The notes beneath the pieces are model-generated. The model saw nothing but the letters and a program-made list of their open reading frames with translations. It had not been told where the DNA came from and made no database searches. Made by a program: the position numbers and the translations under genes. Below are positions 1,503 through 23,940 of a stretch of DNA of 39,878 nt, one piece after another. How positions within the stretch are numbered: position 1 is the stretch's first letter; every line of letters begins with the position of its first letter. The stretch comes from Planctomycetota bacterium (GTDB lineage Bacteria > Planctomycetota > Phycisphaerae > UBA1845 > UTPLA1), in the NCBI GenBank assembly GCA_003576905.1, contig QEVG01000039.1, positions 1 to 39,878 of the forward strand, read 5' to 3'.

Positions 1503-1508
1503 AGGAGG
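1503..1508 (+). promoter_or_regulatory. Strong ribosome binding site for the 105-aa gene
   Basis: AGGAGG sits five bases before the ATG at 1514. It is one of the best Shine-Dalgarno matches in the window, and it decides that the frame starting at 1514 is translated even though a longer overlapping frame is open here. Confidence 0.7.
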
Positions 1509-1513
1509 TCACC

Positions 1514-1831
1514 ATGCCGTACAAGACGATCATCATCGAGCTACTTCGACAGCAGCCCTGGCTTCACGGCCGGCTTCGCCGAAAGCGGAAGGCGCTCGCA
1601 GTCGTGAATCACTACGCCGGCGAACTGAAGACGCGCCACGAACACTGGAAAGCGACGCTGCCCGTGAGCCGGCCGGACATGGGTTCGATCCAGCTCGCCA
1701 GCGCCGCGCTGGAGATCGCCCTCGCCGAGGTGAAGCCTCGTTTGCGGAACGCGTCGCTGCCGGGCGAAGAGAATCATTCGTCGTCGGGCGTCGCAAGGGC
1801 GCGGTCCCGCAAACGCACGTCGCGCGCCTGA
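1514..1831 (+). CDS. Small plasmid/ICE-type hypothetical protein upstream of methylase-helicase
   Basis: This is a 105-aa protein with an excellent ribosome site. Residues 1-75 read as a helical, charged cytoplasmic protein: MPYKTIIIELLRQQPWLHGR at the N-terminus, then YAGELKTRHEHWKATL and IQLASAALEIALAEV. From memory this resembles small proteins (YKT...LELxxxxP...ELKxxHExWK...ALExAL) encoded just before large methylase-helicase genes on plasmids and integrative elements; I cannot check this here. The last 30 residues are Arg/Ser-rich. Its stop TGA (1829-1831) overlaps the frame of the next gene. The function is unknown; an accessory role to the downstream helicase is an inference from position. 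Confidence 0.6.
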   Translation: MPYKTIIIELLRQQPWLHGRLRRKRKALAVVNHYAGELKTRHEHWKATLPVSRPDMGSIQLASAALEIALAEVKPRLRNASLPGEENHSSSGVARARSRKRTSRA

Positions 1832-4800
1832 CATGGGCAGGCGAGCCGACGCTGTTCGACCTGCTGTCGCCTCCACCGCCTTCTGAAACCCATTCGACGA
1901 CAGATCGAAGCACGCCGGCGGCCGGCAAGCCCGAGCCGGCGACACCTGTCCAGATCGCCAGCGGCGAGAAGGAAAAAGCCCGCGACATCATCGCGGCCAT
2001 CCGCACGCTTCAGACAGTCGAAAGCGAGCAGCGAAAGGCTACCCCGGAGGAGAGACAGGCGCTCGCCCGCTTCGCCGGCTTCGGGCCGGTCGCCCTGTCG
2101 ATTTTTCCCGACCCGGTGACAGGCCGCTACAAGGACGCCGGCTGGGAGAAGCTCGGCGAAGAATTGAAATCCCTGCTCACGCCCGCCGAGTACGACAGCG
2201 CCAAGCGCACGACGTTCAACGCTTTCTACACGTCGCCCATCGTTATCGCCGGCATTCACGAGGCCATCGCGCGGCTGGGCGTGCCCGACGACGCCACCAT
2301 TCTGGAACCCGGATGCGGCATCGGCAACTTCATGGGCCAGGGGAGCGGCCGGCATCGCTTCATCGGCGTCGAGCTGGACTCGATTTCGGGGCGCATCGCG
2401 CGGGCTTTGCATCCCGACCAGGACATCCGCATCGAGAGCTTCCGCGACACCAAGCTGCCCGAGGGTCGCATCGACGCCGTGATCGGCAACGTGCCTTTCG
2501 CTGAAATCAAACTCGATTATCACGGGCAGAAGCTCGCATTGCATGACTACTTCCTCGCCAAGTCGGTCGATGCGCTGAAGCCCGGCGGCGTGCTGGCGGT
2601 GGTCACGTCGCATTTCACGCTCGACAAGCAGAATGCCGCCGGCCGCGAGTATCTCGGCGACAAGGCTGACTTCGTCGGCGCGATCCGCCTGCCGTCGGAT
2701 GCGTTCAAACGAGAAGGGACAGCCGTCGTCACCGACATCGTGTTCCTGCGCAAGCGAGCGCCCGGCGAGCCGGCCCATCATGCCGATCCGCAGTGGCTGG
2801 GCATCGCCCCGCTGGCCATCGAGGGGGCCGAAGTCCCGATCAATCGCTATTTCATCAATCACCCTGAGATGGTGCTCGGTACGTGGACGAGGCAGGACAC
2901 GCTTTACGGCGGCGAAGGCTATAGCGTTCGCGGCAACGGCGACCTTGCCGAAAAGCTCAGGGAAGCAATCCGGCAGTTGCCGGAGTTCCAACCGGCACCG
3001 GCGTCGCGTGAATCCGAGCAACCCGCCGCGACGTTTACGCCGCCGCCGCCCGAGAAGCACATCAACGAGGGAAGTTTCTTCGTCCGGGACGACAACGCCA
3101 TTTGCCAGCTCGTGAACGGCCAGGGCGTCGCCGTCGAATATGGCGGCAAGGCACTGAAGGCCAACGGGACGTTGACCGGCCGAAGGCTCGCCGGCCTGAT
3201 CGGCCTGCGCGACCGCGCCCGCCGCGTGTTGCAATCACAGAACGAAGGCTGGCCGGCCGAGCATCGAGACGAAGCGCGGCGCGATCTCAATAACGCCTAC
3301 GACCGGTTCAGCCGTGCCTACGGCCCGATCAACAAGACCAGCTTCAGCGAGAGTCGTGACGGCAGCGTCATCCGCCGACGGCCCAACCTGGCCAAGTTCA
3401 TCGAAGATCCCGACGCCATGCTGGTGATGTCGCTCGAAGACTACGACGAAGTCACAGAAAAGGCTCAGAAGGCCGCCATCATGAGCAAGGACGTGGTGGG
3501 CCGGACCCCGCCTGTCACACAGGTCAGAAACGCCGAGGAAGGCTTGCTCGTCTCGCTCAATCAGCGGGGCAGGGTGGACCTGCCGTTCATCGCCGAACTG
3601 TACGGCAAGCCGGAGGAGCGGATCGTCACCGAACTGGGCGATCTGATCTACCACGATCCGGAGTCGAAGTCGTGGAAGACCGCCGACGAGTATCTGTCAG
3701 GCAATGTCCGCGCCAGGCTGGCCGCAGCCGAAAAGGCGGGACGGGCCTACGCACAGAACGCCGAGGCGCTGCGGCGCGTGCAGCCCGAGGACGTGCTGCC
3801 CGGCGACATCGACGCCAATCTCGGCGCGCCGTGGGTTCCGGCAAGTGACATCCAGGCTTTCGCGGCGGAGTTATTCCATGTTCCGCCGGAGGCCGTGCCC
3901 GTCGCGCATCTTGAGAAAGACGCGGTATGGAGCCTCGATGCAGGTCACGCCGCGCGGGCGTCCGTCGCCGCGACCTCCGACTTCGGCACGGCGCGCGCCA
4001 ACGGCGCGTGGCTGCTGGAACTGGCCCTCAACATGAAATCGCCGGTGATCTACGACATCATCGACCACGGCGACAAGGAAGAGCGCGTCGTCAACCAGAA
4101 TGAGACGCTCGCCGCACGCGAGAAGCAGAAGCTCATCAAGGAGCGCTTCCGCGCATGGGTGTTCACAGATCCCGAACGCACCGAGCGGCTCGTGCGCATC
4201 TACAACGACAACTACAACAATCTTCGGCCGCGCCTCTTCGACGGCTCGCACCTCGACTTCCCCGGCATGAACCAGACGATCCACTTGCGGCCGCACCAGG
4301 CCGACGCGATATGGCGGGGGATGAGTTCCGGGAACACGCTGCTGGCCCACGCCGTCGGCGCCGGCAAGACGTTCACGATGGCTGCGACCGGAATGAAGAT
4401 GAAGCAGGCCGGCCTCATTAAGAAGCCGATGTACGTCGTGCCCAACCACCTGCTGGAGCAGTTCGCCCGCGAATTCATGCAGCTCTACCCCAACGCCAGG
4501 CTTCTGGTCGCCGGCAAGGAGGATTTGCGCCGCGACCGCCGCAAGCTGTTGACCGCCAAGATCGCCAGCGGCGACTGGGACGGCATCCTCGTCACGCATT
4601 CGTCGTTCGAGCGGATCGGCATGTCGCGGGAATATCAGGAGAAGTTCCTCACCGAGCAGATCGCCAAGTATGACGAGCTGCTGCTTAAACATGCCGGCGC
4701 CAAGGGATCGAACCGGAACATCATCAAGCAGATCGAGAAGCAGAAGGCAGCCCGTGTCGAGCGCTTAAAGGACCTGCTGGCCGAGGAGAAGAAGGATGAC

Positions 4801-6954
4801 GGCCTCGTATTCGACGAATTGGGCGTCGATCACGTCTTCATCGATGAGGCCCACTTCTTCAAGAATCTGGAGACGCCGACCAAGATGGAGCGAGTCGCCG
4901 GCATCCAGACCGGCGGCAGCGAGCGCGCCTTCGACGTGTACATGAAGGCGAGCTATCTCGGCGAGCAGCATCCCGGCCACGGCGTCACCTTCGCCACCGG
5001 CACGCCGGTCTCGAACACGATGGTCGAGATGTACACGATGCAGCGCTTCCTCGACCCGGCCGGGCTGAAGAGCAGGGGCTTGGAACACTTCGACGCCTGG
5101 GCGGCGACGTTCGGTGAAGTCATCGACACAATGGAGATTTCGCCGGACGGGGCGTCGCTTAGGCCACGCAGCCGTTTTGCGAAATTCACCAACCTCCCGG
5201 AATTGCAGCAGATGTTCCGTGCTTTCTCCGACGTGCAGACGGCCGAGATGCTCAACCTGCCGCGGCCGCGGCTGGAAGGCGGCAAGCAGATCGTCGTCGC
5301 CTGTCCCATGTCCGCGGAGCAGCACGCCCTTCAGGACGGACTCGTTGCCCGATACGAGCGGCTGCGGACGGAAAAGGTGGACCCGCGCGAGGACAATGCC
5401 CTCAACATCACGACCGACGGCCGCAAGCTGGCTCTCGACGGGCGGATGCTCTCCGCCTCCGCACCGGACTTTCCCGGCTCAAAGGTCAACCGTTTGGTCG
5501 AGAACGTCCTCGCCACATGGGAGAAGACGGCTGCCACGCGCGGCACGCAGATGATCTTCTGCGACATGGGCGTGCATAAGACGCCCTGGGGCTATTCGGC
5601 GTACGACGACGTGACCGAGAAACTCATTGCCACCGGCATCCCCCGCAGCGAAATCGCCGCCATCGGCGACGCCGATTCCGACGCCAAGAAGCAGGCCCTC
5701 TTCGAGAAAGTCCGCAACGGCACGGTGCGTGTGTTGATCGGCAGCACGCAGAAGATGGGCACCGGCACCAACGTCCAGCAGCGGCTGGTCGCCCTGCATC
5801 ATCTTGATGCCCCGTGGAAACCGGCCGAGGTCGAGCAGCGCGAAGGCCGCATCCTGCGGCAGGGCAACACCAACGAGGAAGTGGCCGTTTATCGCTACGT
5901 CACCGAAGGTTCGTTCGATGCTTACATGTGGCAGGCCCTGGAGACGAAAGCCAGATTCATCGGCCAGGTCATCACCGGCAACAACGCCGCGCGCCGCGCC
6001 GAGGATGTCGGCGGGCAGGAGCTTTCGTACGCGGAAGTGAAGGCCATCGCCTCCGGCAACCCAGCCGTACTGACGCTCGCCGAGGCCGACGCCGAATTGC
6101 AGCGGCTGGCGCTCCTGAAGAAGAACCACGTCGATGAGCAGTACGTCGCCCGCCGCAGCGTGCGGGATTTGCCCGAGAAAATCGCCCGGCTCAACGATCG
6201 GTTGTCGAACCTCATGGCCGACCAATCAACGGCGACGGCTCATGCCCGCGATCCGGTTACGATCAACGGCCGCGAGTATGCGAAGGACGAGGCCATCGCC
6301 GTGCTGGGCGCGCAAATAGACAAACTGCCGCGCGACGTGCGCCAGGAGCAGCGAAGCCCGCTCGGCGTGTATCGCGGCATGCGCTTCGGCCTCGTGATGC
6401 ATCGAGATTTCCCGCCCGACGTGTACGTTGAAGGCGCGACCATGCGATACGACCGCCTTCTCCGCGGCAGCCACGGCCCGCGCGCCGTGCTCAACGCCAC
6501 TGAGCGACTGTGCAACGCCTTTGGCAGCGAGATCGACGGCGTGAAACAGGACCTGTCCATCGCCGAATCGCAACTCCGCGACTACCACGCCCGCATCGGC
6601 AAGCCGTTCACGCACGAAACCTACGAGGCCGAACTGACGCACCTGCGCGACCGGCTCAAGGCGAGCCTCGCCGGCATCCCGTCGAACCCCGGCAGCGTCG
6701 AATCGCCTGATCCCGCTGCCGAACCACCCGTTTCAACCGCCGATCTGGCCAACCGGATCAAGGCCCTCAAGGCTGCCCACACCATTGACGCCGCCCCCGA
6801 GCGCACCACGAGCCGCCGTCTCAATGCCGAGGAACCCGTCACGTCCCGCATCCGCCGACGGCAACCAAGGGCGTTGTCATCAACCCCGGAAGCTGTGTCG
6901 AACGATGTGGGGAGCATTCTTGGAATCAGACGCACGACCGGACGACGAATCTGA
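1828..6954 (+). CDS. DarB-like DNA N6-methylase / SNF2 helicase fusion
   Basis: This is a giant protein, about 1708 aa counted from 1828. Residues about 155-320 form a Rossmann methylase: motif I ILEPGCGIGNFMG near 157 and the catalytic-type motif GNVPF near 218 (NPPY/NPPF in typical enzymes), then GGVLAVVTSHFTLD. From about residue 820 a superfamily-2 helicase follows: Walker A AVGAGKT near 842, VFIDEAHFF (DEAH) near 1002, ATGTPVSNTM near 1055, and QREGRILRQGN (motif VI) near 1340. This architecture is known from phage P1 DarB and large plasmid/ICE proteins. Roles in protecting incoming DNA from restriction or in transfer are inference. The start is unresolved. The frame is open from TTG 1390/ATG 1402, but that stretch overlaps the 105-aa gene. 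Between 1514 and about 2115 I see no in-frame ATG, GTG or TTG. CTG at 1828, overlapping the upstream TGA as CTGA, is the best candidate. Confidence 0.85.
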   Translation: MTWAGEPTLFDLLSPPPPSETHSTTDRSTPAAGKPEPATPVQIASGEKEKARDIIAAIRTLQTVESEQRKATPEERQALARFAGFGPVALSIFPDPVTGRYKDAGWEKLGEELKSLLTPAEYDSAKRTTFNAFYTSPIVIAGIHEAIARLGVPDDATILEPGCGIGNFMGQGSGRHRFIGVELDSISGRIARALHPDQDIRIESFRDTKLPEGRIDAVIGNVPFAEIKLDYHGQKLALHDYFLAKSVDALKPGGVLAVVTSHFTLDKQNAAGREYLGDKADFVGAIRLPSDAFKREGTAVVTDIVFLRKRAPGEPAHHADPQWLGIAPLAIEGAEVPINRYFINHPEMVLGTWTRQDTLYGGEGYSVRGNGDLAEKLREAIRQLPEFQPAPASRESEQPAATFTPPPPEKHINEGSFFVRDDNAICQLVNGQGVAVEYGGKALKANGTLTGRRLAGLIGLRDRARRVLQSQNEGWPAEHRDEARRDLNNAYDRFSRAYGPINKTSFSESRDGSVIRRRPNLAKFIEDPDAMLVMSLEDYDEVTEKAQKAAIMSKDVVGRTPPVTQVRNAEEGLLVSLNQRGRVDLPFIAELYGKPEERIVTELGDLIYHDPESKSWKTADEYLSGNVRARLAAAEKAGRAYAQNAEALRRVQPEDVLPGDIDANLGAPWVPASDIQAFAAELFHVPPEAVPVAHLEKDAVWSLDAGHAARASVAATSDFGTARANGAWLLELALNMKSPVIYDIIDHGDKEERVVNQNETLAAREKQKLIKERFRAWVFTDPERTERLVRIYNDNYNNLRPRLFDGSHLDFPGMNQTIHLRPHQADAIWRGMSSGNTLLAHAVGAGKTFTMAATGMKMKQAGLIKKPMYVVPNHLLEQFAREFMQLYPNARLLVAGKEDLRRDRRKLLTAKIASGDWDGILVTHSSFERIGMSREYQEKFLTEQIAKYDELLLKHAGAKGSNRNIIKQIEKQKAARVERLKDLLAEEKKDDGLVFDELGVDHVFIDEAHFFKNLETPTKMERVAGIQTGGSERAFDVYMKASYLGEQHPGHGVTFATGTPVSNTMVEMYTMQRFLDPAGLKSRGLEHFDAWAATFGEVIDTMEISPDGASLRPRSRFAKFTNLPELQQMFRAFSDVQTAEMLNLPRPRLEGGKQIVVACPMSAEQHALQDGLVARYERLRTEKVDPREDNALNITTDGRKLALDGRMLSASAPDFPGSKVNRLVENVLATWEKTAATRGTQMIFCDMGVHKTPWGYSAYDDVTEKLIATGIPRSEIAAIGDADSDAKKQALFEKVRNGTVRVLIGSTQKMGTGTNVQQRLVALHHLDAPWKPAEVEQREGRILRQGNTNEEVAVYRYVTEGSFDAYMWQALETKARFIGQVITGNNAARRAEDVGGQELSYAEVKAIASGNPAVLTLAEADAELQRLALLKKNHVDEQYVARRSVRDLPEKIARLNDRLSNLMADQSTATAHARDPVTINGREYAKDEAIAVLGAQIDKLPRDVRQEQRSPLGVYRGMRFGLVMHRDFPPDVYVEGATMRYDRLLRGSHGPRAVLNATERLCNAFGSEIDGVKQDLSIAESQLRDYHARIGKPFTHETYEAELTHLRDRLKASLAGIPSNPGSVESPDPAAEPPVSTADLANRIKALKAAHTIDAAPERTTSRRLNAEEPVTSRIRRRQPRALSSTPEAVSNDVGSILGIRRTTGRRI

Positions 6955-7468: not shown

Positions 7469-7870
7469 ATGACTAGACTGCTCGCGACAATCCTGATGCT
7501 CGCCTTGGTGGTTTCGTGCCCGCTTGTTTGCCGGGCGATGATGCCCGCGAATGACCGTGGCGCGAAGGATGCGCAGATCATAACTCAGGAATTGCCCGGA
7601 GACTTCGATTGTTGTCCGGGAGGCGAGCAGGAGCGTTCCACGCCAGCCGATCCTTGCGAAGGCACCTCATGCTTCTGCTCAACGTTCGTGACAGTTGACC
7701 GCGCGCAGACGACTGCGATTGAGCGGGCGGTCTTCAGCTTGTTTTATGATGCCATTGCTTCGACACTTGTCTGCTTCACGCCTCAAGTCGTCGATGAACT
7801 CATCGTCGACGAACCTGTCTCGCATGTGCAAGCCCCCGGAAGCTCGTCCATCCTTCCTCTCCTAATCTGA
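7469..7870 (+). CDS. Cys-rich secreted protein heading metal module A
   Basis: This is a 133-aa protein. Residues 1-23 form a signal peptide (MTRLLATILMLALVVSCPLV). The mature part has clustered cysteines: DFDCCPGG, then DPCEGTSCFCSTFV, then a single Cys in LVCFTPQ. It ends in SSSILPLLI. The Cys clusters and its place before an RND pump suggest periplasmic metal binding (inference). It has the same layout as the protein at 16192-16572, which heads the second RND module: signal peptide, Cys cluster ending in a TFV-type strand, and a C-terminal LPLL(I/V). The two look like distant paralogs. I recognise no named family. A weak ribosome site (GAGAAG) precedes the ATG. Confidence 0.6.
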   Translation: MTRLLATILMLALVVSCPLVCRAMMPANDRGAKDAQIITQELPGDFDCCPGGEQERSTPADPCEGTSCFCSTFVTVDRAQTTAIERAVFSLFYDAIASTLVCFTPQVVDELIVDEPVSHVQAPGSSSILPLLI

Positions 7871-8002: not shown

Positions 8003-9721
8003 ATGTCTTTTCTTCGCAACGTGGCTGTGCTGCCACTTCGATCTCTAACACGGTTCCTTCCGACGCTGGCCGTTCTGATCGCCATTGGCGGCGTCGGCTA
8101 TTGGGGTCACTCGAATGAGTGGCGCGCGCCGAAGTTCGCTTCACTATTCGGTTCACCACCGGCCCGCGAAGCGGAAGATTGGTGCGCTGAGCACAACGTG
8201 CCAGAGTCGCGGTGCATCAAGTGTCATCCTGAACTCGCCGGCGAAGCCCAAGCCGATTGGTGCAAGGAGCATGGCGTGCCGGAATCCAGGTGTACGATTT
8301 GTCACCCTGAAATACTGACAAAGGGCGTGGCCGGCGACTGGTGCAGGGAGCATGGCGTGCCCGAGTCGAACTGCACAATTTGTCATCCCGAAATCGCCAT
8401 TAAAGGCGAGGCGCCAAAGTCGGAGACCGGGATCACCATTCTTCCGCCTGACAAACCCGAAACGACGGCTCCTGCCTCGACCTCCGGGAAAGCCGACACT
8501 TGTTCTGCCAAGGAACCTCCGACCCCCAGCGAGACTGAAGCACTGATACCGAGCAAAGTTCCAAAGGAACCAGCGACGTGCCAAACGCATGCGCTGCGCG
8601 TCCAGTTCGCCTCGGCCGATTCGGTGAAGAAGGCCGGCGTATCGCTTGGCGGTGTCGTCGAACGCCCGATGGAGCAGACGGTCGGCGCGAACGCCGAGAC
8701 GCGATATGACCAGACGCGCTTCGCGGAAGTCGCTGCACGGGTTCCCGGTGTCGTTTGGCGCGTAGACAGACAACTGGGCGACGAGGTTCGCAAGGGCGAT
8801 GTGCTCGCGCTCGCCGATTCGGCCGAAGTGGGGCGGGCAAAGGCCGAACTGTTGACGGCCACCGCGCAGCGCGAGCTGCGCGAGAAATCGCTGGAACGAA
8901 TCAGCGCCTTGCTGCCGCAGAAGATCAGTACGGAGGTTGAGCTTCAGGAAGCTCAAGCAGCTCTGCGCGAGGCTGGGATTCGTGTATTCAACTCGCGGCA
9001 AGCGTTGATCAATCTCGGGCTGACCGTACCAACGGAAAACCAACAGACTCCCGCGGAGAAGGACCTGCAACTTTTCGGGCTGCCAGATCAAGTCCGCGCA
9101 TCGCTTGACAGTGGCGCGCCCTCGGCAAACCTCGTTCCGCTGCTTGCGCCCCTCGATGGCACGGTAATCCAGCGCGATGCCGTCGAGGGAAAGGTGATTG
9201 AGGCATCTAAGCCTGTCTTTGCGATTGCGGACACGCGGCGCATGTGGCTGATGATCGATGTTCCGCAATCACAGATCAGTCGGATTGCGATCGGGCAAGC
9301 CGTCAACTTCCGCCCGGAACGGAGCGATGAGAACGCGCACGGGAAAATCACGTGGATGAGCACCGGGGTCGATGACCAGACTCGAACGGTCAAGGTCCGC
9401 GCCGAACTTGATAACGAAGATGGACGACTCCTCGCTTCAACCTTCGGTCGGGCAGACATCACCATTCGAGAATCCGCGAATGCCGTTGCTGTGCCAACGA
9501 GCGCCATCCAATGGGAAGGATGTTGCCACATTGTCTTTGTTCGGCTAACCGACGACATCTTTCAAACGCGCAAGGTCAAGCTCGGGGCGCGTGATGCTTA
9601 CTTCACAGAAATCGTGGCAGGACTCCTTCCGGGCGAGGTTGTGGCAACCACCGGGAGCCATGTTCTCAAATCTGAAATCCTGAAGAGCAACCTCGGTGCA
9701 GGCTGCTGCGCCGACGAATAA
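8003..9721 (+). CDS. RND periplasmic adaptor with N-terminal WC-EH-CxxCH repeats
   Basis: This is a 572-aa membrane fusion protein (HlyD/CusB/CzcB type). A single N-terminal membrane anchor spans about residues 17-35. Then come three 19-residue repeats (59-77, 85-103, 112-130) of pattern DWCxEHxVPESxCxxCHPE, and a Pro-rich linker to about 195. The adaptor core follows: a lipoyl-like half VPGVVWRVDRQLGDEVRKGD, a coiled-coil hairpin (about 270-340), the second lipoyl half LAPLDGTVIQRDAVEGKVIE, and a beta-barrel domain. The C-terminus ends GAGCCADE. CusB relatives often carry extra N-terminal metal-binding segments, but this repeat is not one I recognise. CxxCH also resembles a haem c site; the extra conserved Cys, Glu and His argue for metal binding instead. 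The pump gene follows 20 bases downstream. GAGGTG precedes the ATG. Confidence 0.85.
   Translation: MSFLRNVAVLPLRSLTRFLPTLAVLIAIGGVGYWGHSNEWRAPKFASLFGSPPAREAEDWCAEHNVPESRCIKCHPELAGEAQADWCKEHGVPESRCTICHPEILTKGVAGDWCREHGVPESNCTICHPEIAIKGEAPKSETGITILPPDKPETTAPASTSGKADTCSAKEPPTPSETEALIPSKVPKEPATCQTHALRVQFASADSVKKAGVSLGGVVERPMEQTVGANAETRYDQTRFAEVAARVPGVVWRVDRQLGDEVRKGDVLALADSAEVGRAKAELLTATAQRELREKSLERISALLPQKISTEVELQEAQAALREAGIRVFNSRQALINLGLTVPTENQQTPAEKDLQLFGLPDQVRASLDSGAPSANLVPLLAPLDGTVIQRDAVEGKVIEASKPVFAIADTRRMWLMIDVPQSQISRIAIGQAVNFRPERSDENAHGKITWMSTGVDDQTRTVKVRAELDNEDGRLLASTFGRADITIRESANAVAVPTSAIQWEGCCHIVFVRLTDDIFQTRKVKLGARDAYFTEIVAGLLPGEVVATTGSHVLKSEILKSNLGAGCCADE
8177..8392 (+). repeat. Three coding repeats of a Cys/His metal-binding-like module
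   Basis: Copies lie at 8177-8233, 8255-8311 and 8336-8392, each 57 bases (19 codons). Each encodes Asp-Trp-Cys-x-Glu-His-x-Val-Pro-Glu-Ser-x-Cys-x-x-Cys-His-Pro-Glu. Third codon positions differ among copies while the residues hold, so selection acts on the protein. Two more copies are at 13098-13154 and 13182-13238. Confidence 0.9.
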
Positions 9722-9741
9722 GAACAGCAGAGACGAACAGC

Positions 9742-12700
9742 ATGTTGAATTGGATTATCAACTGGTCGCTTCGGCGCAGGATGCTGGTGGTCGGCATCAC
9801 GCTCGGGTTTGTCGTCGCCGGCATGATCGCCATCAGCCACTTGAACATCGATGCCTTCCCCGACACGACGCCGGTGCAGGTTCAGATCAATACCGTTGCT
9901 CCGGCATTGGGACCAGAGGAGGTCGAGCGACAGATCACGATTCCGGTGGAGCAGTCGATCAGCGGCCTACCGGGATTGAAGAACGTTCGCTCCATTTCAA
10001 AGTTCGGGTTATCGCAAGTTGTGGTCACGTTCGAGGACGGGATCGATATTTACTTCGCCCGCCGCCTCATTGGGGAACGTCTTTCGACCGTCGAGTTGCC
10101 TGCCGGGATCACGCTCCCTGAGATGGGACCGGTTGCGACTGGGCTTGGCGAAGTCTTTCACTACATCGTCACCTCCGAGACTCGGAATCTCACTGAACTG
10201 CGGACCATTCAGGATTGGACAATCAAACCCGTCCTGCGCGCGGTTCCCGGCGTAGCCGAGATCAACAGTTGGGGTGGTCTGGAAAAGCAATATCAAGTTC
10301 GTATCGACCCGAACCGGCTGATCAAGTACGGCCTCTCTTATGACGAGGTCATCGAGGCACTGGAACAGAACAATCTCAATGCCGGCGGTGGCAGCATCGG
10401 TACCGGCGGCGCGATGCAGCTTGTCCAGGGCATCGGCCGTGTCGTGACGCTCGATCAAATTGGCGACATCGTCATTAAGGCGCAGGATGGCATACCGATC
10501 CACGTGCATGACGTGGCGGACGTGCAGGTCGGCGCGGAGATTCGGCGCGGGGCAGTCACCTACGGCGGCGGCGGCGAAGCCGTGCTCGGCCTGGGCTTCA
10601 TGTTAATGGGCCAGAATACGCACGAAGTCACGTCAAGGCTCAAAGAGAAGCTGGAAGAGATCAAGAAGACGTTGCCGGCCGATGTCCACGTTGAGACGGT
10701 GTACGATCGGACAGAATTGGTAGATCACGTCATTGACACAGTCCGCAAGAATCTGTTCGAGGGGGGGCTACTCGTCATTGCCGTGCTGTTCATGTTCCTC
10801 GGCAATCTCCGAGCCGGATTGATAGTCGCGATGGCAATCCCCCTCTCGATGCTATTCGCCTTTTCGGGAATGCTGCAATTCGCCATCGCCGGTAGTCTCA
10901 TGAGTCTCGGGGCCATCGATTTCGGTCTGGTTGTGGACAGCGCAGTCATCCAGATCGAAAACGCGACGCGTCACATCGCTCACGACCGGCGCAAACGACC
11001 GCTTGTTGAGGTGGTGCGCGACGCCGTGTTGGAAGTCCGCAAGCCGACGATGTTCGGTGAACTCATCATTGCTCTCGTGTACGCGCCTATTCTTGCGCTC
11101 GAAGGAATCGAAGGGAAACTCTTCCGTCCGATGGCGTTGACGGTGATATTCGCCCTGGCCGGTTCGCTCGTGCTGTCGCTGACGCTCATGCCCGTGCTCG
11201 CGAGTCTATTGCTGCCTCGCCGAATGGAAGAACGCGATCCACTCCTCGTTCGCCTCGCGCGTCGCGCCTATGCCCCCGTGCTTCAGTTCGTCATGCGGCA
11301 CAATGTTGTCGTGCTGGCGTTGGCCGTATGCGTCTTGGGATTCGCCGCTGTCGTCGCCCGCGGTTTGGGTACCGAGTTCATTCCCCGACTATCAGAAGGC
11401 GCGATTGTCGCCAATGTCGTTCGCCTAGCGGGCACGGACCTCGATGAGTCCGTTCGTTACAACACGCAGATGGAGCGGGCGTTACTGTCCGCCTTTCCCG
11501 ACGAGATACGCCATGTCTGGAGCCGCATCGGCACGGCTGAGGTCGCAACCGATCCGATGGGCGTGGAGCTGACCGATATCTTCCTGTCATTGACGCCGCG
11601 CAGCCAATGGAAGCGCGCAGAGACGCAAACTGAGTTGGTCGAATTGATGCTGCGGGAGCTGCGCGACATGCCCGGGCAGCGCGTCGCGATGACGCAGCCT
11701 ATCGAAATGCGAATGAACGAGATGATCGCCGGCGTGCGCGGCGACGTGGCCCTGAAGCTGTACGGCGACGACTTGGACATCCTCAAGGCAAAGGGTAACG
11801 AAATCGGTGCCATTCTGGGCTCGATACGCGGGGCTGCCGATCTGAGCACCGAGCAACTCACCGGACAGCCGGTGTTGCAAATCCGAGTCGATCAGGAAGC
11901 CATCGCCCGTCACGGCGTGCCCGCGAAGGCCGTGATGGACCTCGTCGAGTCCATTGGAAGCAAGCCACTCGGCGAAGTGATCGAGGGGCAGCTCCGCTTC
12001 CCGCTCGTGGCGCGCCTGCCCGACGCGTATCGCCGTGATATCGATGCAGTCAGAGCTGTCGTCCTCCCAACAGCATCCGGCCAGCGCGTCCCCCTTGCCA
12101 CCCTTGCCGCGATTGAGGAAGTAGAAGGCCCTTCCACGATCACGCGCGAGTGGGGGCAGCGCCGCACGACGATTCAAGTCAACGTTCGCGGTCGCGACAT
12201 GGGCGGCTATGTTGCCGAGGCGCAGCAGCGGCTTGCGAAGGAAGTTGAACTACCGCCAGGGCGCTATCGCGTTGAATGGGGCGGCCAATTCGAAAACTAC
12301 GACCGGGCGCGCAACCGACTTCTCATTGTTGTCCCAGGCGTACTCGTGATGATTTTTGTGTTGCTCTATGTCACGTACAACCGCGTGCTGGATGCGATCC
12401 GCGTGTTCACCGGCGTTCCCTTCGCCGTCGTCGGCGGCGCGATCGCACTGTGGGTCCGCGACATGCCATTTTCGATTTCGGCGGCCGTGGGATTCATCGC
12501 CCTGTCTGGCGTTGCCGTTCTGGGAGACATGGTCCTTGTGTCCTACGTTCGGCAATTGCTTGCTGGCGGGGCGTCGCTTCGCGAGGCAATCTCGGAGGCG
12601 GCGACGACAAGGTTGCGACCCGTCTTGATGACTGCGCTCGTGGCCTCCTTGGGGTTCGTTCCAATGGCCCTCAGCACGGGCGTCGGAGCAGAAGTCCAGC

Positions 12701-12912
12701 GGCCGCTCGCTACCGTCGTGATTGGCGGCGTCATCAGCAGCACATTGCTGACGCTGCTTGTTTTGCCCGCCATTTATCTCGTCTTTGGGGCAGTGAGCGC
12801 CGCGAAGGCGGCGAAGGACGCCGAAGGCGACGACGCCCTTAAACGACCAACCCCAGCGTTGGAGTCGATCGATCTTCCCACACCAACGGGAACGGAACCG
12901 GTTCATGCATGA
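9742..12912 (+). CDS. HME-RND heavy-metal efflux pump (module A)
   Basis: This is a 1056-aa inner-membrane RND transporter of the CzcA/CusA heavy-metal class, with the usual length. The N-terminus MLNWIINWSLRRRMLVVGIT, followed by HLNIDAFPDTTPVQVQIN, is typical of HME-RND pumps. In TM4 the proton-relay residues are D393, D399 and E406 within GAIDFGLVVDSAVIQIEN, with the spacing of CzcA's Asp/Asp/Glu. The C-terminal half repeats the fold (WGGQFENYDRAR, then the TM segments around SAAVGFIALSGVAVLGDMVL). The Ser after the second Asp (DSA rather than DGA) differs from the module C pump. The Asp-Glu relay favours a divalent metal over Cu/Ag; this is inference. It is directly downstream of the adaptor, but module A has no outer-membrane channel gene. 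Confidence 0.92.
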   Translation: MLNWIINWSLRRRMLVVGITLGFVVAGMIAISHLNIDAFPDTTPVQVQINTVAPALGPEEVERQITIPVEQSISGLPGLKNVRSISKFGLSQVVVTFEDGIDIYFARRLIGERLSTVELPAGITLPEMGPVATGLGEVFHYIVTSETRNLTELRTIQDWTIKPVLRAVPGVAEINSWGGLEKQYQVRIDPNRLIKYGLSYDEVIEALEQNNLNAGGGSIGTGGAMQLVQGIGRVVTLDQIGDIVIKAQDGIPIHVHDVADVQVGAEIRRGAVTYGGGGEAVLGLGFMLMGQNTHEVTSRLKEKLEEIKKTLPADVHVETVYDRTELVDHVIDTVRKNLFEGGLLVIAVLFMFLGNLRAGLIVAMAIPLSMLFAFSGMLQFAIAGSLMSLGAIDFGLVVDSAVIQIENATRHIAHDRRKRPLVEVVRDAVLEVRKPTMFGELIIALVYAPILALEGIEGKLFRPMALTVIFALAGSLVLSLTLMPVLASLLLPRRMEERDPLLVRLARRAYAPVLQFVMRHNVVVLALAVCVLGFAAVVARGLGTEFIPRLSEGAIVANVVRLAGTDLDESVRYNTQMERALLSAFPDEIRHVWSRIGTAEVATDPMGVELTDIFLSLTPRSQWKRAETQTELVELMLRELRDMPGQRVAMTQPIEMRMNEMIAGVRGDVALKLYGDDLDILKAKGNEIGAILGSIRGAADLSTEQLTGQPVLQIRVDQEAIARHGVPAKAVMDLVESIGSKPLGEVIEGQLRFPLVARLPDAYRRDIDAVRAVVLPTASGQRVPLATLAAIEEVEGPSTITREWGQRRTTIQVNVRGRDMGGYVAEAQQRLAKEVELPPGRYRVEWGGQFENYDRARNRLLIVVPGVLVMIFVLLYVTYNRVLDAIRVFTGVPFAVVGGAIALWVRDMPFSISAAVGFIALSGVAVLGDMVLVSYVRQLLAGGASLREAISEAATTRLRPVLMTALVASLGFVPMALSTGVGAEVQRPLATVVIGGVISSTLLTLLVLPAIYLVFGAVSAAKAAKDAEGDDALKRPTPALESIDLPTPTGTEPVHA

Positions 12913-12916
12913 GGAG
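12911..12916 (+). promoter_or_regulatory. Ribosome binding site deciding the lipoprotein start
   Basis: GAGGAG overlaps the pump stop codon and lies seven bases before ATG 12924. It favours that ATG over the one at 12909 and implies translational coupling with the pump. Confidence 0.6.
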
Positions 12917-12923
12917 AAAAACC

Positions 12924-13280
12924 ATGCGATTCAGAAGAAAGTGCAAGTCGTTTTTGCTCGTGCTCTTCAGCACGCCGCTCATGATGGGCGGTTGCGATTG
13001 CGGAGGCGACGCACACACGAAATCGGAAGCACCGAAGGTCGAATCTCCCCCAGCCGAGCCGCCTAAAGCGCCGCTCGTCAAGAAACCGGAAATCGTTGAT
13101 TGGTGCGTCGAACATGGCGTGCCTGAATCCATCTGCACGCGCTGTAACGCGGCGCTAATCGAGGGATTCAAGAAAAAAGGCGATTGGTGCAAGGAACATG
13201 GCCTGCCCGAGTCCCAGTGTTTCGTTTGCCATCCCGATTTGAGAGCCAAGTTTGAAGCAATGGCACCCAAGAGGCCGTGA
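12924..13280 (+). CDS. Lipoprotein with two WC-EH-CxxC repeats
   Basis: This is a 118-aa lipoprotein. The signal peptide ends in a lipobox-like LMMGGC (C24), followed by DCGG and a Pro/Lys-rich tether to about residue 55. Two 19-residue modules follow: 59-77 (DWCVEHGVPESICTRCN...) and 87-105 (DWCKEHGLPESQCFVCHPD). They are the same module as the three repeats in the module A adaptor; the first ends CN instead of CH. The protein is therefore a membrane-tethered carrier of the adaptor's metal-binding-like module. A periplasmic metal relay to the pump is an attractive inference. It is coupled to the pump gene and overlaps the next start by one base (TGATG). Confidence 0.75.
   Translation: MRFRRKCKSFLLVLFSTPLMMGGCDCGGDAHTKSEAPKVESPPAEPPKAPLVKKPEIVDWCVEHGVPESICTRCNAALIEGFKKKGDWCKEHGLPESQCFVCHPDLRAKFEAMAPKRP
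13098..13238 (+). repeat. Two further copies of the Cys/His coding module
   Basis: Copies lie at 13098-13154 and 13182-13238 and encode the DWCxEHG(V/L)PESxCxxC(N/H) module in the lipoprotein. They match the adaptor repeats at 8177-8392. Confidence 0.88.
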
Positions 13281-13753
13281 TGCCCGAAGTTGCCTGCAAA
13301 GTTGCCGGGCGTGTTCCCGCCTCGGCATTTGTGCGTTTAGTCGCGACTCTCGCTGCGATCGGAAGCGCCACCATTTTGGGCTTTGCTATGACACTCGCCC
13401 CCAGTCCGACGGGCGTCGGCACGCACACGCAACTCGGCTTGCCCCCGGACCCGATACTGAAAGCGACTGGCGTGCCAATGCCGGGCTGCGGAATGACGAC
13501 CAGCTTCGCATGGTTCGTCCGCGGCAACCTGCTCGCCAGCATCTATGTGGAGCCGATGGGAGCGTTTCTGGCGACTCTGACCGCGGCGGTTGTTCCTCTG
13601 GGTTTGTTCATCGCGATCACGGCCCGGCCGGTGCATCGCAGGCTCGCGCCCCTGTTGCGCATGCGGGTACTGGTGATCGTCATCGCGTTCGCGGCCCTTT
13701 CGTGGGCGTGGAAGGTACTGATCCATGTGAACGGCTGGGACGGCTGGAGATAA
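13280..13753 (+). CDS. DUF2752-like membrane protein
   Basis: This is a 157-aa protein starting at ATG 13280, overlapping the previous TGA by one base. It has about three membrane segments: residues about 18-39 (VATLAAIGSATILGFAMTLA), about 90-110, and about 127-145. Between the first two lies the DUF2752 signature: GVPMPGCGMTTSF...GNLLAS....P. DUF2752 proteins are small membrane proteins of unknown function with a conserved PCPGCGxT motif; here the first Cys is Met (PMPGCG). Its position inside a metal-efflux operon, after a Cys-module lipoprotein, suggests a link to metal handling; this is inference. Confidence 0.65.
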   Translation: MPEVACKVAGRVPASAFVRLVATLAAIGSATILGFAMTLAPSPTGVGTHTQLGLPPDPILKATGVPMPGCGMTTSFAWFVRGNLLASIYVEPMGAFLATLTAAVVPLGLFIAITARPVHRRLAPLLRMRVLVIVIAFAALSWAWKVLIHVNGWDGWR

Positions 13754-16191: not shown

Positions 16192-16572
16192 ATGCTAGGC
16201 CGACTTGTAATCATCGCAGCAGGTCTTTGGACGTTCTTCGGCGCGCCCACGCTTTGCGCGGCCGGCCTGATCGTCCATGCCTGCGATCCAGCTTGTGAGC
16301 CCGCATCTCCCGAAGACGGGCATCATGGGCAAGAAGGCGGCTGCGGGCACGAATCAGGCTGTGCGTCCGACCCATGCACGTTCGTTGCCGCGCCGTCCGG
16401 CAACCTCGTTCTTGCCAAACTCCAGCTCCCTTCCGCAGAATTTTCTCAGTCGGCGGCCGTATCATACGAAGGCTCCAGGCCGCCGGACGGCTTTTCCTTC
16501 TCAGTACATCTCGACGACTTCGCACTCTGCAGAAGTCCAGGCCTCGGCCGCTCCCTGCCTCTCCTGGTTTGA
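16192..16572 (+). CDS. Cys/His-rich secreted protein heading metal module C
   Basis: This is a 126-aa protein with a signal peptide (residues 1-24: MLGRLVIIAAGLWTFFGAPT then LCAA). The mature N-terminus is rich in Cys and His: HACDPACEP, then HHGQEGGCGHESGCASDPCT, then FVAAP. It ends GLGRSLPLLV. Layout and ending match the protein at 7469-7870, which heads the first RND module. A periplasmic metal-binding role is inferred from composition and position. A TTGACA hexamer at 16148-16153 lies upstream, but I see no good -10 partner. Confidence 0.6.
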   Translation: MLGRLVIIAAGLWTFFGAPTLCAAGLIVHACDPACEPASPEDGHHGQEGGCGHESGCASDPCTFVAAPSGNLVLAKLQLPSAEFSQSAAVSYEGSRPPDGFSFSVHLDDFALCRSPGLGRSLPLLV

Positions 16573-16685: not shown

Positions 16686-18203
16686 ATGCGATCAATTCTC
16701 ACGTATTGCGTCATTGCATTTGCGGTACTTCTCTGCGGCTGCGCGCAAGTGAAACCACAACCCGATTATGACCGGGCCAATGAGCATATTCAGGATGCCA
16801 CCGGCTACGCGCCGGGTTACCGGCCGAGCGAGGAATTGTTGGCTTCGCAACAGGTCGAATTGCTCATGCATGACGGTTTGTCGCTCGACGACGCCGTCAA
16901 ACTGGCGCTGCTTAACAACCCCACGCTCCAGGCGACGTACCGCGATGTCGGAATCGCGAGAGCCGACGTGGTTCAGTCGGGACTCTTCTCGAATCCGACT
17001 TTCGCGTTCTCTGCGCAGTTTCCCGAAGGCGGCGGCCGGAGCAACATCCAGGCGAGTCTCGCCCAGAACATCGTCGATCTGTGGCAGATTCCCATACGCA
17101 AGCGGGCAGCCGAACGATCGCTCGATGAGTCGATCCTTCGCCTCGCGCGTGCCGCAGCACAACTTTGCATTGATACCAAGATTGCCTATTACGCCGCTGT
17201 CGCAGCCGACCAGAACCTTGACATCGCGAGAGAAAACTACGACATCGTCAAGCGTCTGCTCGACGTGGCTCTGGCCCGTCAGAAGGCGGGGTTTGTCAGC
17301 GAACTGGACGTAAATCTGAACCGCCAAACCGTCCTCACCGCTCAACTCGAAGTCCAACAGGCTCGCCTGGATGCGGCCGCCGCGCGAAGACAACTGGCGC
17401 TGTTACTTGGCGTGACGACGCGCGTTGAGGATGTCGCGTTGACGACGCCGCTGTCCGAGGCGCCGTTGGTCTGGTGGACGACAGACGAGTTGCTCGAAGT
17501 CGCACGGGAGCATCGCCTCGATCTGCGAGCGGCGAGGAAATCCGCCGAAGCCGCCGCCGTGCGGCTTGAATTCGAGTACCGTAAGATATTCCCCGATTTC
17601 AACATCGGTGCGGCGCTTGAACGGAACGAGCGCCGAGCTCTGCCGGGCCGCGATGTGCTGGCCGACACCGCCCGTGCATCGATTGCAAACGGCGCCCTGA
17701 CGGCGCCCGACATCCAGTCCCGCGGTCAGCGCAACCAGGAGCGCCGGCAGGAGATCGACGCGATCCTCGGCCCCGCTTTCTCACTGACACTGCCGATCTT
17801 CGACCAAAATCAGGCACAGATTGCTCGGGCTCGTTTCACCTTCGAGCAGACTTTGAAGCAGGTCGAGGCGCTCGAACGCGGAATCGTTCAAGAAACGCGG
17901 CAATCGCTCGATGCGGCGACGACAGCTGCGGAGATCGCCCGTTTCTATGAGCAGTCTCTCCTGCCGCAATCACAATCAAACCTCGAATTGACGCGCACAT
18001 CGTACGAAAAGGGGGCGACGCCGATCCTGGTCGTTCTCGACGCGCAGCGGTCATTGCTGGCCGCGCGCCGTGGTGCGGTCACGGCCCGGCAGGCGGCATC
18101 GACCTCGCTCGCGGAACTGGAACGCGTTACGGCACAGCCCCTCCGGGCGCTGCCGACTTCAATGCCCGCTTCACAGCCGGCCAGCTTGCCGGAGGGTTTT
18201 TGA
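16686..18203 (+). CDS. czcC: CzcC-like outer-membrane efflux channel (TolC family)
   Basis: This is a 505-aa TolC-family lipoprotein. The signal peptide ends LLCGC (C19). Two homologous helical halves follow: SLDDAVKLALLNNPTLQATY and DVGIARADVVQSG in the first, and QEIDAILGPAFSLTLPIFDQ and ARARFTFEQTLKQVEALERG in the second. The start pattern LxxAVxLALxNNPxLxA and the ILGPAFSLTLPIFDQN motif are typical of CzcC/CusC. It opens the C-B-A order of module C. It is the only outer-membrane channel in the island and could also serve the module A pump (inference). Confidence 0.88.
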   Translation: MRSILTYCVIAFAVLLCGCAQVKPQPDYDRANEHIQDATGYAPGYRPSEELLASQQVELLMHDGLSLDDAVKLALLNNPTLQATYRDVGIARADVVQSGLFSNPTFAFSAQFPEGGGRSNIQASLAQNIVDLWQIPIRKRAAERSLDESILRLARAAAQLCIDTKIAYYAAVAADQNLDIARENYDIVKRLLDVALARQKAGFVSELDVNLNRQTVLTAQLEVQQARLDAAAARRQLALLLGVTTRVEDVALTTPLSEAPLVWWTTDELLEVAREHRLDLRAARKSAEAAAVRLEFEYRKIFPDFNIGAALERNERRALPGRDVLADTARASIANGALTAPDIQSRGQRNQERRQEIDAILGPAFSLTLPIFDQNQAQIARARFTFEQTLKQVEALERGIVQETRQSLDAATTAAEIARFYEQSLLPQSQSNLELTRTSYEKGATPILVVLDAQRSLLAARRGAVTARQAASTSLAELERVTAQPLRALPTSMPASQPASLPEGF

Positions 18204-18225
18204 GAACCTCATCGGAGATTGATCG

Positions 18226-18432
18226 ATGACAATACGCAGCGCCTTGAAAAGCCGTCGAATCGCAGCGTGCGCGACGTTGATGCTACTGATACTGGTTCAA
18301 TCGGGCTGCATTCCGACTGATCCGGCATCAACATCCGATCCGGTTTCCACTATCGGGTCGGAAGTCTTGAACCAGGCTGTCAACTTTTTCTTCAGCTTCC
18401 TGCGGAGTGCGCTCGCCGCATTTCTTTTGTGA
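18226..18432 (+). CDS. Small lipoprotein between czcC and czcB
   Basis: This is a 68-aa protein. The signal peptide ends LVQSGC (C28), followed by IPTDPAST and a hydrophobic C-terminal helix ending FFFSFLRSALAAFLL. The C-terminal amphipathic/hydrophobic end resembles tiny lipoproteins I associate with planctomycete genomes, though I cannot verify this. It is 22 bases after the CzcC-like gene and 10 before the CzcB-like gene, so it is clearly part of the operon. Function unknown. Confidence 0.6.
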   Translation: MTIRSALKSRRIAACATLMLLILVQSGCIPTDPASTSDPVSTIGSEVLNQAVNFFFSFLRSALAAFLL

Positions 18433-18442
18433 GTAAAATGGT

Positions 18443-19765
18443 ATGAATACGAATCAGCGATCAAGCAAAACCGCTTTCCGGTACGCAGCCTTGGTGCTGG
18501 CCTTCATGCTGACTGTGTCGCTGCTCGCGCTGGTGGCCTGTCGTGACAAGGGCGTGAATCACGCCGCGGCGAACGATGCCGAGGACCGCCATTCGGAAGG
18601 CGATGGGCATGATCACGGCGAAGGCGGGCACGAACATGGCGGCGAAGTGAAACTCACACCCGATGCCATCGCGCGTTACGGGGTGAAAGTCGAAGCGGCC
18701 TCCCTCTACAAGCTTCAGCCCTCGTTCATCGCCCCCGCGCGCGTCGCATACAACGCCGAATCGATGGCACACGTCGGAACGCCGCTTCCCGGCCGCGTGG
18801 TAGATTTGGCTGTCCGCCTCGGCGACCGCGTAAAGAAGGGAGACGCGCTTCTCATCGTGGAAAGCCCGGAATTGGGTGAGGCCCAAAACGACTTTCTGGG
18901 CAAGCAAATCGCCGCGAAGGCTGCGGAATCCGCTGTAGAACTCGCGCAAGGCGCTTTGGATCGCGCCAAGGGTCTCTATGAAGAGACGGGCGGTATCGCC
19001 CTGGAGGAGGTCAAGAAGCGCGAGGGTGAACTCAAGGCGGCTCAGGCGTCGTTACTCACCGCACAAGCGGCCGCCACGGCTTCGGAGAACAAGCTTCACC
19101 TCCTCGGAATGGACCAGGCGGCGGTCGAGAAGCTGCGAAGTACCGGCGAAGTCAATCCCAAGTTCACGATCATCGCTCCGCTCGACGGCGAAGTCGTCGA
19201 ACGGGAGGTCAAATTCGGTGAACTCGTCAATCGTGAGAAGGAGGCACTCATCGTGCTTGCCGACCTGAGCACGCTGTGGGTGCTGGCCGATGTGCCCGAG
19301 GCTCGGCTGCCGGAAATCGCCATCGGGGCCGATGCCTGGATTCACGCCGGGAGCCTTGATCCGCATCGGCACGAGGGTCAAGTCTCCTACATCGCGCCCC
19401 AGATCGATCCGCGTACCCGCACCGCAGCCGTCCGCATCGTGGTGAAATGCGAGCATGGCGCTCTACGCCCGGGTGCATTCGTACAAGTTGAGATCTCAAA
19501 GACAGATCGCAATGCCGAGGAGCCGCCGCCGGTTGTTGCAGTGCCGGAAGATGCTATCCAGACGGTCGAAGGCCGCTCTGTCGTCTTCGTGCCCGTGCCG
19601 AAAGAGGAGAACACCTTCGTTGAGCGCGCAGTAACAGTGGGCAAGCCGGTGGGCGGAATGGTTCCTGTTCTCTCCGGACTCGTTGAGGGCGAGCAGTTCG
19701 TGGCGGCTGGAACCTTCGTGATGAAGGCGGAACTCGGCAAGAGCACGGCCGAACACCAGCACTAG
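18443..19765 (+). CDS. czcB: CzcB-like RND periplasmic adaptor
   Basis: This is a 440-aa adaptor. The signal peptide/anchor ends LLALVAC (C33), so it is a probable lipoprotein. A His-rich segment at residues 50-65 (HSEGDGHDHGEGGHEHGG) likely binds metal. Then come the lipoyl half VGTPLPGRVVDLAVRLGDRV, a coiled-coil hairpin (about 150-215), the second lipoyl half APLDGEVVEREVKFGELV, a beta-barrel and the membrane-proximal domain. The C-terminus ends AEHQH. Unlike the module A adaptor, it uses His clusters instead of Cys repeats. It lies in the usual C-B-A order before the pump. Confidence 0.9.
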   Translation: MNTNQRSSKTAFRYAALVLAFMLTVSLLALVACRDKGVNHAAANDAEDRHSEGDGHDHGEGGHEHGGEVKLTPDAIARYGVKVEAASLYKLQPSFIAPARVAYNAESMAHVGTPLPGRVVDLAVRLGDRVKKGDALLIVESPELGEAQNDFLGKQIAAKAAESAVELAQGALDRAKGLYEETGGIALEEVKKREGELKAAQASLLTAQAAATASENKLHLLGMDQAAVEKLRSTGEVNPKFTIIAPLDGEVVEREVKFGELVNREKEALIVLADLSTLWVLADVPEARLPEIAIGADAWIHAGSLDPHRHEGQVSYIAPQIDPRTRTAAVRIVVKCEHGALRPGAFVQVEISKTDRNAEEPPPVVAVPEDAIQTVEGRSVVFVPVPKEENTFVERAVTVGKPVGGMVPVLSGLVEGEQFVAAGTFVMKAELGKSTAEHQH

Positions 19766-19797
19766 TCTAGAGGTTCTCCTCGTTGGAGCAGACGGAC

Positions 19798-23283: not shown

Positions 23284-23350
23284 TTATCGACTCGTCGCCG
23301 AACGGCGCGTGCCGTTTCAGGTATCCAAGTTCAACACGAAGGAGAAACCC

Positions 23351-23623
23351 ATGATCCAAAAGAATGGAAACAAAGCGCTCATCGGTTTGGTTGCTGTCGT
23401 CCTTGGGACATTCTGCGCCGTGAACCTGATGGGCCAGTCGGGCACCGCCCAGCCCGTCCGCAGCGAGACGCAGTATTTCGTCACAGGCGAGGGCGACGAT
23501 GCCCACCTCTGGGTGAGAGAGGGCTCCAATCTTCGCTGCATCGGCCACGGTGAGTGCAAAGCCCACGGCGACCACAAGCACGGCGACGGGCATGATCATG
23601 ACAAAGAAATGTCGAAGCCGTAA
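23351..23623 (+). CDS. His-rich periplasmic protein
   Basis: This is a 90-aa protein from ATG 23351 with AAGGAGA upstream. The signal peptide (ALIGLVAVVLGTFCAVNLMG) is followed by a short domain (TQYFVTGEGDDAHLWVREGS, NLRCIGHGECKAHG) and the tail DHKHGDGHDHDKEMSKP. The tail resembles the His segments of the adaptor and pump in the same module. It is probably a periplasmic metal buffer or chaperone (inference). It lies 67 bases after the pump and overlaps the next frame. Confidence 0.65.
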   Translation: MIQKNGNKALIGLVAVVLGTFCAVNLMGQSGTAQPVRSETQYFVTGEGDDAHLWVREGSNLRCIGHGECKAHGDHKHGDGHDHDKEMSKP

Positions 23624-23915: not shown

Positions 23916-23940
23916 CGGCAAGCGGCATCGTGGTGCATTC

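Follow-up and report, generated by a model that had tools for sequence, protein, structure and literature searches.

A repeated Cys-His-Cys-Cys module in an RND adaptor and a lipoprotein, a putative periplasmic metal-binding domain associated with one branch of CzcA-type pumps

Introduction

What does a small Cys- and His-containing repeat do on both sides of a heavy-metal pump? The question is raised by a 39,878-nucleotide stretch of a Planctomycetota bacterium (assembly GCA_003576905.1, contig QEVG01000039.1, positions 1 to 39,878), referred to in its full length as the window. The pattern D-W-C-x2-H-x6-C-x2-C occurs there in five copies, three in a periplasmic adaptor of the resistance-nodulation-division (RND) type and two in a putative lipoprotein, flanking a CzcA-type permease. 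To our knowledge, the loading of heavy-metal efflux (HME) pumps from the periplasm, and their choice among Zn, Cd, Pb, Co and Ni, are poorly resolved outside CusCFBA. We consider it likely that the module is a short periplasmic Cys-His-Cys-Cys (CHCC) metal-binding domain, probably of the Zn/Cd/Pb type, that loads the pump. Metal binding, the identity of the metal and the direction of its transfer are the parts of this reading that we infer.

The module operon

The operon lies on the + strand and comprises, in order, the adaptor gene (8003-9721, including the stop), the permease gene (9742-12912) and the lipoprotein gene (12909-13280). Adaptor and permease genes are separated by 20 bp, and the start of the lipoprotein gene overlaps the permease stop. 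The 572-residue adaptor (8003..9718) begins with a helix in the AlphaFold2 model (residues 3-37, 8009..8113), which covers a hydrophobic stretch and is probably a membrane anchor. Three modules follow, at residues 59-76 (8177..8230; candidate ligands C61, H64, C71 and C74), 85-102 (8255..8308; C87, H90, C97 and C100) and 112-129 (8336..8389; C114, H117, C124 and C127). The ligand columns of the second are invariant across 50 aligned adaptors. The 123-residue protein (12909..13277) carries two modules, at residues 64-81 (13098..13151; C66, H69, C76 and C79, followed by Asn) and 92-109 (13182..13235; C94, H97, C104 and C107).

The adaptor was matched by HlyD_D23 (PF16576) in Pfam-A at 135 bits (cut-off 30, E 2.9e-39) and by TIGR01730 in NCBIfam at 153 bits (above the cut-off of 94.9). 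Its nearest solved sequence and fold is ZneB 3lnn (Foldseek E 6.9e-25), and it has the barrel-sandwich domain and fold of an RND periplasmic adaptor. It falls below the narrower CzcB/NccB model TIGR00999 (170.9 bits, cut-off 319.3), and 'CzcB-type' is used loosely here. The permease (9742..12909), whose motif in transmembrane helix 4 (TM4) is DFGLVVDSAVIQIEN, was matched by TIGR00914 at 1175.6 bits, above the cut-off of 701.45, and belongs with the CusA/CzcA heavy-metal RND permeases. Its nearest solved sequence is ZneA 4k0e (E 3.6e-207), with CusA behind.

The 123-residue protein was classed as a putative lipoprotein by its lipobox-like LMMGGC (residues 26-31; C31 at 12999-13001). Among named genomes 473 stretches matched the module and 456 were confirmed by tblastn; the best 80 of these 456 are referred to as the 80 named loci. 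A lipobox-like Cys was found by regular expression in 39 of their 48 separate module open reading frames (ORFs), some matches being misplaced. Downstream in the window, a DUF2752 protein (13277-13753) has a start that overlaps the stop of the lipoprotein gene.

Sequence and conservation of the module

Translated in six frames, the window contains the shorter pattern W-C-x2-H-x6-C-x2-C 5 times; each of 200 base shuffles gave 0 matches. The five window copies all share the D, the W, three C, the E, the H and P-E-S. Pairs of copies differ in 7-11 of 18 codons at the third position, compared with 0-7 at the first and 2-5 at the second. Over the three-module block, nonsynonymous divergence (dN) between the window and L044/L045, of which L045 is a close homologue, was 0.037/0.020, and synonymous divergence (dS) was saturated/1.9; dN over the last 180 adaptor residues was 0.118/0.143. 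The comparison supports strong selection on the ligand residues. An earlier note on the window had described five repeats in two proteins of one operon, with residues under selection, and both points were borne out: positions and pattern were recovered, third codon positions vary most and dN is low relative to dS. Its claim of invariant residues stood beyond the window for the three Cys and the internal His, which are near-invariant, and not for the Trp, the Pro-Glu-Ser and the final His, which vary.

The C,H,C,C set is kept in 471 of the 473 modules, counted as non-independent rows, that were aligned to a hidden Markov model (HMM) with all four ligand columns filled. The internal His is conserved there as strongly as the Cys. 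The two exceptions are L059, in which His replaces Cys, so that one metal ligand is swapped for another, and L101, in which Asp replaces Cys and the copy looks degraded. Trp occupies its column in 263 of 284 distinct modules; for the HMM set the figure is 386 of 445. HMM and regular-expression counts are threshold-dependent. A C-x-H variant of the first ligand pair was found in some adaptors and in the thioredoxin fusions. The number of strict copies per adaptor ranges from 0 (one degraded case) to 6. Lipoproteins were aligned in 45 rows (the window and 44 homologues, chosen for exactly two strict modules), with L059, the second L087 fragment, the four-module L107 ORF and one duplicate dropped.

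Association with one permease branch

Sixty-one relatives were searched with residues 1-497 of the permease. Of the 30 highest-scoring places, all with at least 553 bits, 28 have the module within about 5 kb, as compared by eye. The two remaining places (G004:C109 and G040:C212) belong to genomes with a module adaptor on another contig. The G004 permease of this branch and its module adaptor (L192, L193) are on separate contigs, and neither fetched stretch contains the partner gene; the G040 permease contig ends inside its adaptor, and the module adaptor of that genome is truncated by the start of another contig. TM4 was readable in 23 of 25 best-place loci and reads DFGLxVDS[SA] in all 23. 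No module was found in any fetched stretch of the next 16 places, 15 of which have an adaptor (L206 is a 3.1-kb contig); TM4 was readable in 13 and is of the D-G type in all of them. A permease tree of 42 rows (25 module, 17 non-module) has one label change, with a branch support of 100 in the Shimodaira-Hasegawa-like approximate likelihood ratio test (SH-aLRT); the tree was made by a quick method, is unrooted, and has the G004 and G040 rows labelled module by genome. Module pumps form one permease branch among the relatives. Beside the 80 named loci, DFGxxVD[SN][SA] was found in 66 of 68 readable TM4 (10 were unreadable and 2 loci have no permease).

The earlier note had suggested recording whether profile hits sit in RND adaptors or their neighbours, and mostly they do. 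The module is in an adaptor-like ORF in 74 of the 80 named loci, in a separate ORF in 46 and in both in 40. An RND permease ORF is on the same strand in 78, and in 76 of those it lies at most 400 bp from the module ORF; the two loci without one are L091 and L107, the latter cut by a contig end. Adaptor-permease-lipoprotein is a recurring unit among the loci examined. In all 15 loci fetched from the L076 group the module ORF is the adaptor, and 14 have a permease at most 1.5 kb away. Among 89 loci from the relatives, the phylum and the L087 group, three have no module by HMM and four others have no adaptor or RND gene within 1.5 kb on each side. When longer stretches were taken for those four, L145 was found downstream of a module adaptor and permease (L249), L137 was found near a pump with a module-free adaptor (L248), and L239 and L241 were found to be thioredoxin fusions. 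Four more such fusions came from further matches in the L087 group, which brings the number to six (L242-L247).

Within the window's phylum 79 of 392 genomes gave matches, as did 33 of 235 in the group around L087 and 33 of 132 in the group around L076. The 61 relatives, which include the window's own genome, gave 28 matches at E 0.01, of which three were weak and without a module by a second test, leaving 25. In the own genome (4.71 Mb) clear matches lie only in the adaptor and lipoprotein of the window. No module match was found in phage records. Most record titles with the module belong to Planctomycetota groups; the others name Deltaproteobacteria/Myxococcales/Polyangia, Ignavibacterium, Calditrichaeota, Zixibacteria, Armatimonadetes and a small number of further groups. 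Some of these records may be misbinned, and the collections are incomplete and partly metagenomic. Plasmid pK2D_1 has czcB, czcA and a hypothetical protein with a module match in a row, then cadA and czcD. A thioredoxin gene lies within the same plasmid metal island.

A rule by which lipid-anchored adaptors would be self-sufficient and membrane-helix adaptors would need a separate lipoprotein was considered and proved a tendency only: a separate module ORF stands beside 27 of 38 adaptors with no detected lipobox, compared with 12 of 32 with one (the L099 lipobox is probably false). Sorting to the inner or outer membrane by the residue after the lipobox Cys was also set aside, that residue being too variable and the regular expression missing or misplacing some sites.

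Cys and His at the adaptor ends

The window adaptor ends in a GAGCC tail (C568 and C569, 9704..9709) and has an internal Cys-Cys in its body (C507-C508 in WEGCCHIVFV, 9521..9526; CC in 42 of 69 module adaptors). A Cys lies within the last 25 residues in all 69 complete module-adaptor ORFs of the 80 named loci, as Cys-Cys in 51. C568 is present in 71 of 71 module adaptors, with only 2 non-module rows reaching its column, and a G-x-G-C-C tail was found in 15 of 15 adaptors of the L076 group. Non-module adaptors of neighbouring branches have a terminal Cys in 0 of 15; 12 have a His-containing tail (HEH, HDH), and most have a His-rich N-terminal region too, as judged by eye. The contrast is between module adaptors and 15 sampled non-module adaptors. 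These His-rich HME adaptors resemble module adaptors in carrying extra ligands at both ends, but the ligands are His/Asp-rich stretches and not Cys modules and GAGCC. Permeases beside them have, where sampled, a TM4 of the DG type.

The second pump of the window (18443-23283) has an adaptor of the His kind, from the same adaptor and permease families and in the same putative metal island. It is part of a second HME set (TolC-type protein, His-rich adaptor, permease) that lies with a P1B-ATPase at 16686-26181. Two small Cys-rich proteins with signal-like N-termini (7469-7870 and 16192-16572) are each encoded directly upstream of pump genes. Neither has a Pfam match above cut-off, and 7469-7870 also has no NCBIfam match. 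A large helicase-like protein (ResIII/SNF2; 1390-6954) resembles, by sequence, a mobile-element DNA methylase/helicase. The metal genes of the window may form an island.

Predicted structure

For residues 71-120 of the lipoprotein, AlphaFold2 gave block means of 85-91. Strands of two residues (65-66, 71-72, 93-94 and 99-100) lie around each C-x2-H, and a helix (82-90 and 109-118) follows each C-x2-C; the module pair has a confident predicted fold. In the adaptor model the predicted local distance difference test score (pLDDT) is below 50 for residues 133-169 and 171-181, and residues 133-190 (8399..8572) are a low-confidence, probably flexible tether between the modules and the adaptor body. 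The body scores mostly 90-98, with ZneB as its first match.

Family searches and known relatives

No Pfam-A or NCBIfam family matched the module or the lipoprotein above cut-off in the window proteins. A profile of the module pair found nothing convincing among PDB sequences (best E 0.57), and the statement in the earlier note that the repeat has no named family held in these three collections. No paper on the module was found in titles and abstracts, or in full text for four module letter strings, most subscription journals being outside the scope of the search. When 29 module-pair sequences were compared with Pfam, scattered zinc-finger-like and unrelated families were matched; the most frequent family appeared for 20 of the 29 at E up to 1. 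B-box and double zinc ribbon were rejected as assignments: the best match (zf-B_box_Trim66, lowest E 9.8e-06) extends to 13 of the 29 sequences at the same threshold, and the first of the 29 lies under all cut-offs. The scattered B-box and zinc-ribbon matches are taken to reflect a common C/H spacing.

The closest comparison is HMBD (PF19335), which is likewise a short repeated C-x2-H ... C-x2-C unit in RND adaptors. A profile comparison aligned the ligand pairs at 81% probability, which is weak for a 25-column Cys-dominated pattern. PF19335 was not found in the window proteins at E up to 1, nor for the 29 pair sequences among the 25 of 29 families listed. The loop between the ligand pairs is 10-11 residues in HMBD but 6 in the module, and HMBD mostly has Met two residues after the CxxC, in contrast to (H/N)P in most modules. 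Of the TM4 motifs next to HMBD adaptors one was readable, SIGVMVDSSIVMVEN, and it has no DFG. Membership in HMBD was rejected; a distant kinship would be compatible with these sequences. The own genome has an adaptor with two HMBD copies on contig C32. On its contig C5 (L250) an adaptor with two HMBD matches (one without Cys), a 401-residue HMBD-array protein and an RND permease stand in a row, and this locus is the nearest organised analogue of the module operon.

According to PMC4446572, HME adaptors bear additional metal-chaperone domains, which also occur as proteins in their own right. CusF, the CusB N-terminal region and the SilB C-terminal domain are of this kind, an extra adaptor part that also occurs as a separate periplasmic protein passing metal on (PMC4446572). 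The module fits this class by its position and its fused or stand-alone occurrence, but its chemistry differs and no kinship was detected. CusF, CusB and SilB use Met clusters for Cu(I)/Ag(I), and the CusF/SilB domain is a beta-barrel, whereas the module has Cys/His and small predicted strand-helix units; no sequence link appeared in the PDB profile search. Of the ZneB/ZneA (HME3a) and CzcBA (HME1) systems, the adaptor and permease of the module operon are closest in the PDB to ZneB/ZneA. We know of no such repeats in ZneB.

Which metal

TM4 serves to assign the HME classes, and the zne system falls in HME3a, with divalent cations (PMC7060636). The TM4 signature of HME1/2 is given as DFGX3DGAX3VEN in PMC3637150. 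The module-branch motif differs from it, and the branch therefore lies outside HME1/2. The P1B-ATPase of the putative island was matched by the cadmium subfamily at 522 bits (cut-off 313.5), and a Cation_efflux protein is encoded in the same island. The best guess from these sequences is that the exported ions would be of the Zn/Cd/Pb type.

Discussion

What, then, might the module do? In the reading we consider likely, one ion would be held by C-x2-H between the short strands together with C-x2-C before the helix: a divalent ion of soft or borderline character, most likely Zn(II), Cd(II) or Pb(II). With three Cys and one His per module the number of Cys is odd, so a disulfide would not account for the modules. 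The membrane-anchored adaptor, with three modules on its flexible arm, and the lipoprotein of the same operon, with two, would gather the periplasmic ion. Modules and the GAGCC tail would then hand it to the CzcA-type pump of one branch. By analogy, the best explanation of the arrangement is that it would work like CusF/CusB-N with CusA, or like HMBD arrays. A wider interpretation joins all these parts and is possible at best: an undescribed thiol metal relay, running from the CHCC lipoprotein or adaptor arm to the adaptor Cys tail and on to a dedicated CzcA branch (DFGLxVDS/N), with a thioredoxin-fused relative that would keep or recycle periplasmic thiols.

Several observations weigh against a metal-loading role. 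The HMM-based collection is biased towards modules that retain the ligands, and the 45 lipoprotein rows had been selected for two strict modules beforehand. Foldseek found no solved structure matching the lipoprotein model, and the modules in the adaptor model are of middling confidence (block means 57-78) with little regular structure. The coupling to permeases concerns one branch and so represents one historical event rather than many. TM4 of L077 and L103 is of other types (2 of 68 readable). In L137/L248 a module lipoprotein (L248:8591-9253, +) lies downstream of a pump with a module-free adaptor. The island P1B-ATPase is also above the copper-subfamily cut-off (415 bits vs 397) and, being above both the Cd and the Cu cut-offs, leaves the metal unfixed by the island. 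No CzcA-type permease was found in the fetched stretches of six thioredoxin fusions (that of L243 is only 3.4 kb). The earlier note had regarded settings with no metal or RND link as contrary to its proposal; most loci are heavy-metal pumps, and these six fusions are the part that does not conform. As a separate observation, the L248 lipoprotein has an added His-rich stretch.

The alternative that survives best, though we regard it as unlikely, is that the modules are structural, Zn-stabilised assembly domains that dock the lipoprotein, the adaptor and perhaps the permease, and do not carry the exported ion. The presence of the same pair in adaptor and lipoprotein of one operon would agree with docking, and in the HMM set Pro (433 of 484) and Glu (437 of 484) show the strong conservation expected of a surface or fold. 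The variable copy number per adaptor speaks against it, and the co-conserved C-terminal Cys tail better suits metal handling. The sampled adaptors of neighbouring branches are mostly His-rich at their ends, unlike docking domains.

It is improbable that the modules are periplasmic metal sensors or gates, whose occupancy would alter the adaptor conformation and switch the pump on. An arm on a probably flexible linker could serve such a switch, but the separate lipoprotein outside the adaptor suggests supply.

Very improbable is a role as thiol redox elements, in which the modules would work with thioredoxin in a disulfide relay and the link to metal would be secondary. This idea draws on the thioredoxin gene in the pK2D_1 metal island and on six lipoproteins (L242-L247) in which a module pair precedes a thioredoxin-like stretch (L242:5086-5787, -; L244:6346-6978, +; L245:6858-7619, +; L247:6580-7275, -; and L243 and L246, which were called by sequence). 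Three of the four fusions scanned are above the Pfam Thioredoxin cut-off, and L245 reaches 18.6 bits vs 23.5. However, one regular expression for a thioredoxin-like motif gave a match in just 1 of the 80 named loci, the module His is as conserved as the Cys, and heavy-metal pumps make up most loci examined. In L247 the next gene encodes an MMPL-family transporter; the MMPL family is counted within the wider RND superfamily. In L242, L244 and L245 the fusion gene is followed by one for a protein of roughly 340 residues that has a CxxC near its N-terminus (CAACGNPSLP and similar) and was matched by no Pfam or NCBIfam family.

Covalent haem c bound through CxxCH, a resemblance raised in the earlier note, is hardly credible: in the window CxxCH is present in all three modules of the adaptor and in one of the lipoprotein's two, with weak matches to Cytochrome_C7 (adaptor E 0.09; 3 of 29 pair sequences, best E 0.018) and, for L242, to NCBIfam cytochrome c551 (22.1 bits, cut-off 118), but among the 284 distinct modules the residue after CxxC is His in just 76 and more often Asn (151), it is His in 0 of 45 lipoprotein first modules, and the near-invariant preceding C-x2-H would be left unexplained. 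A cytochrome c site, with CxxCH in every member, was rejected on these counts.

For the metal-loading role, the Cys-ended branch beside the His and HMBD branches offers a natural comparison, in which swaps of the ends should shift metal preference if the ends load the pump. If the relay exists, HME pumps would come in Cys, His and HMBD versions, distinguished by their adaptor ends. A widespread nameless domain gains a place and a testable role, and the module would let annotators name 'hypothetical' proteins such as K2D_47010 on pK2D_1.

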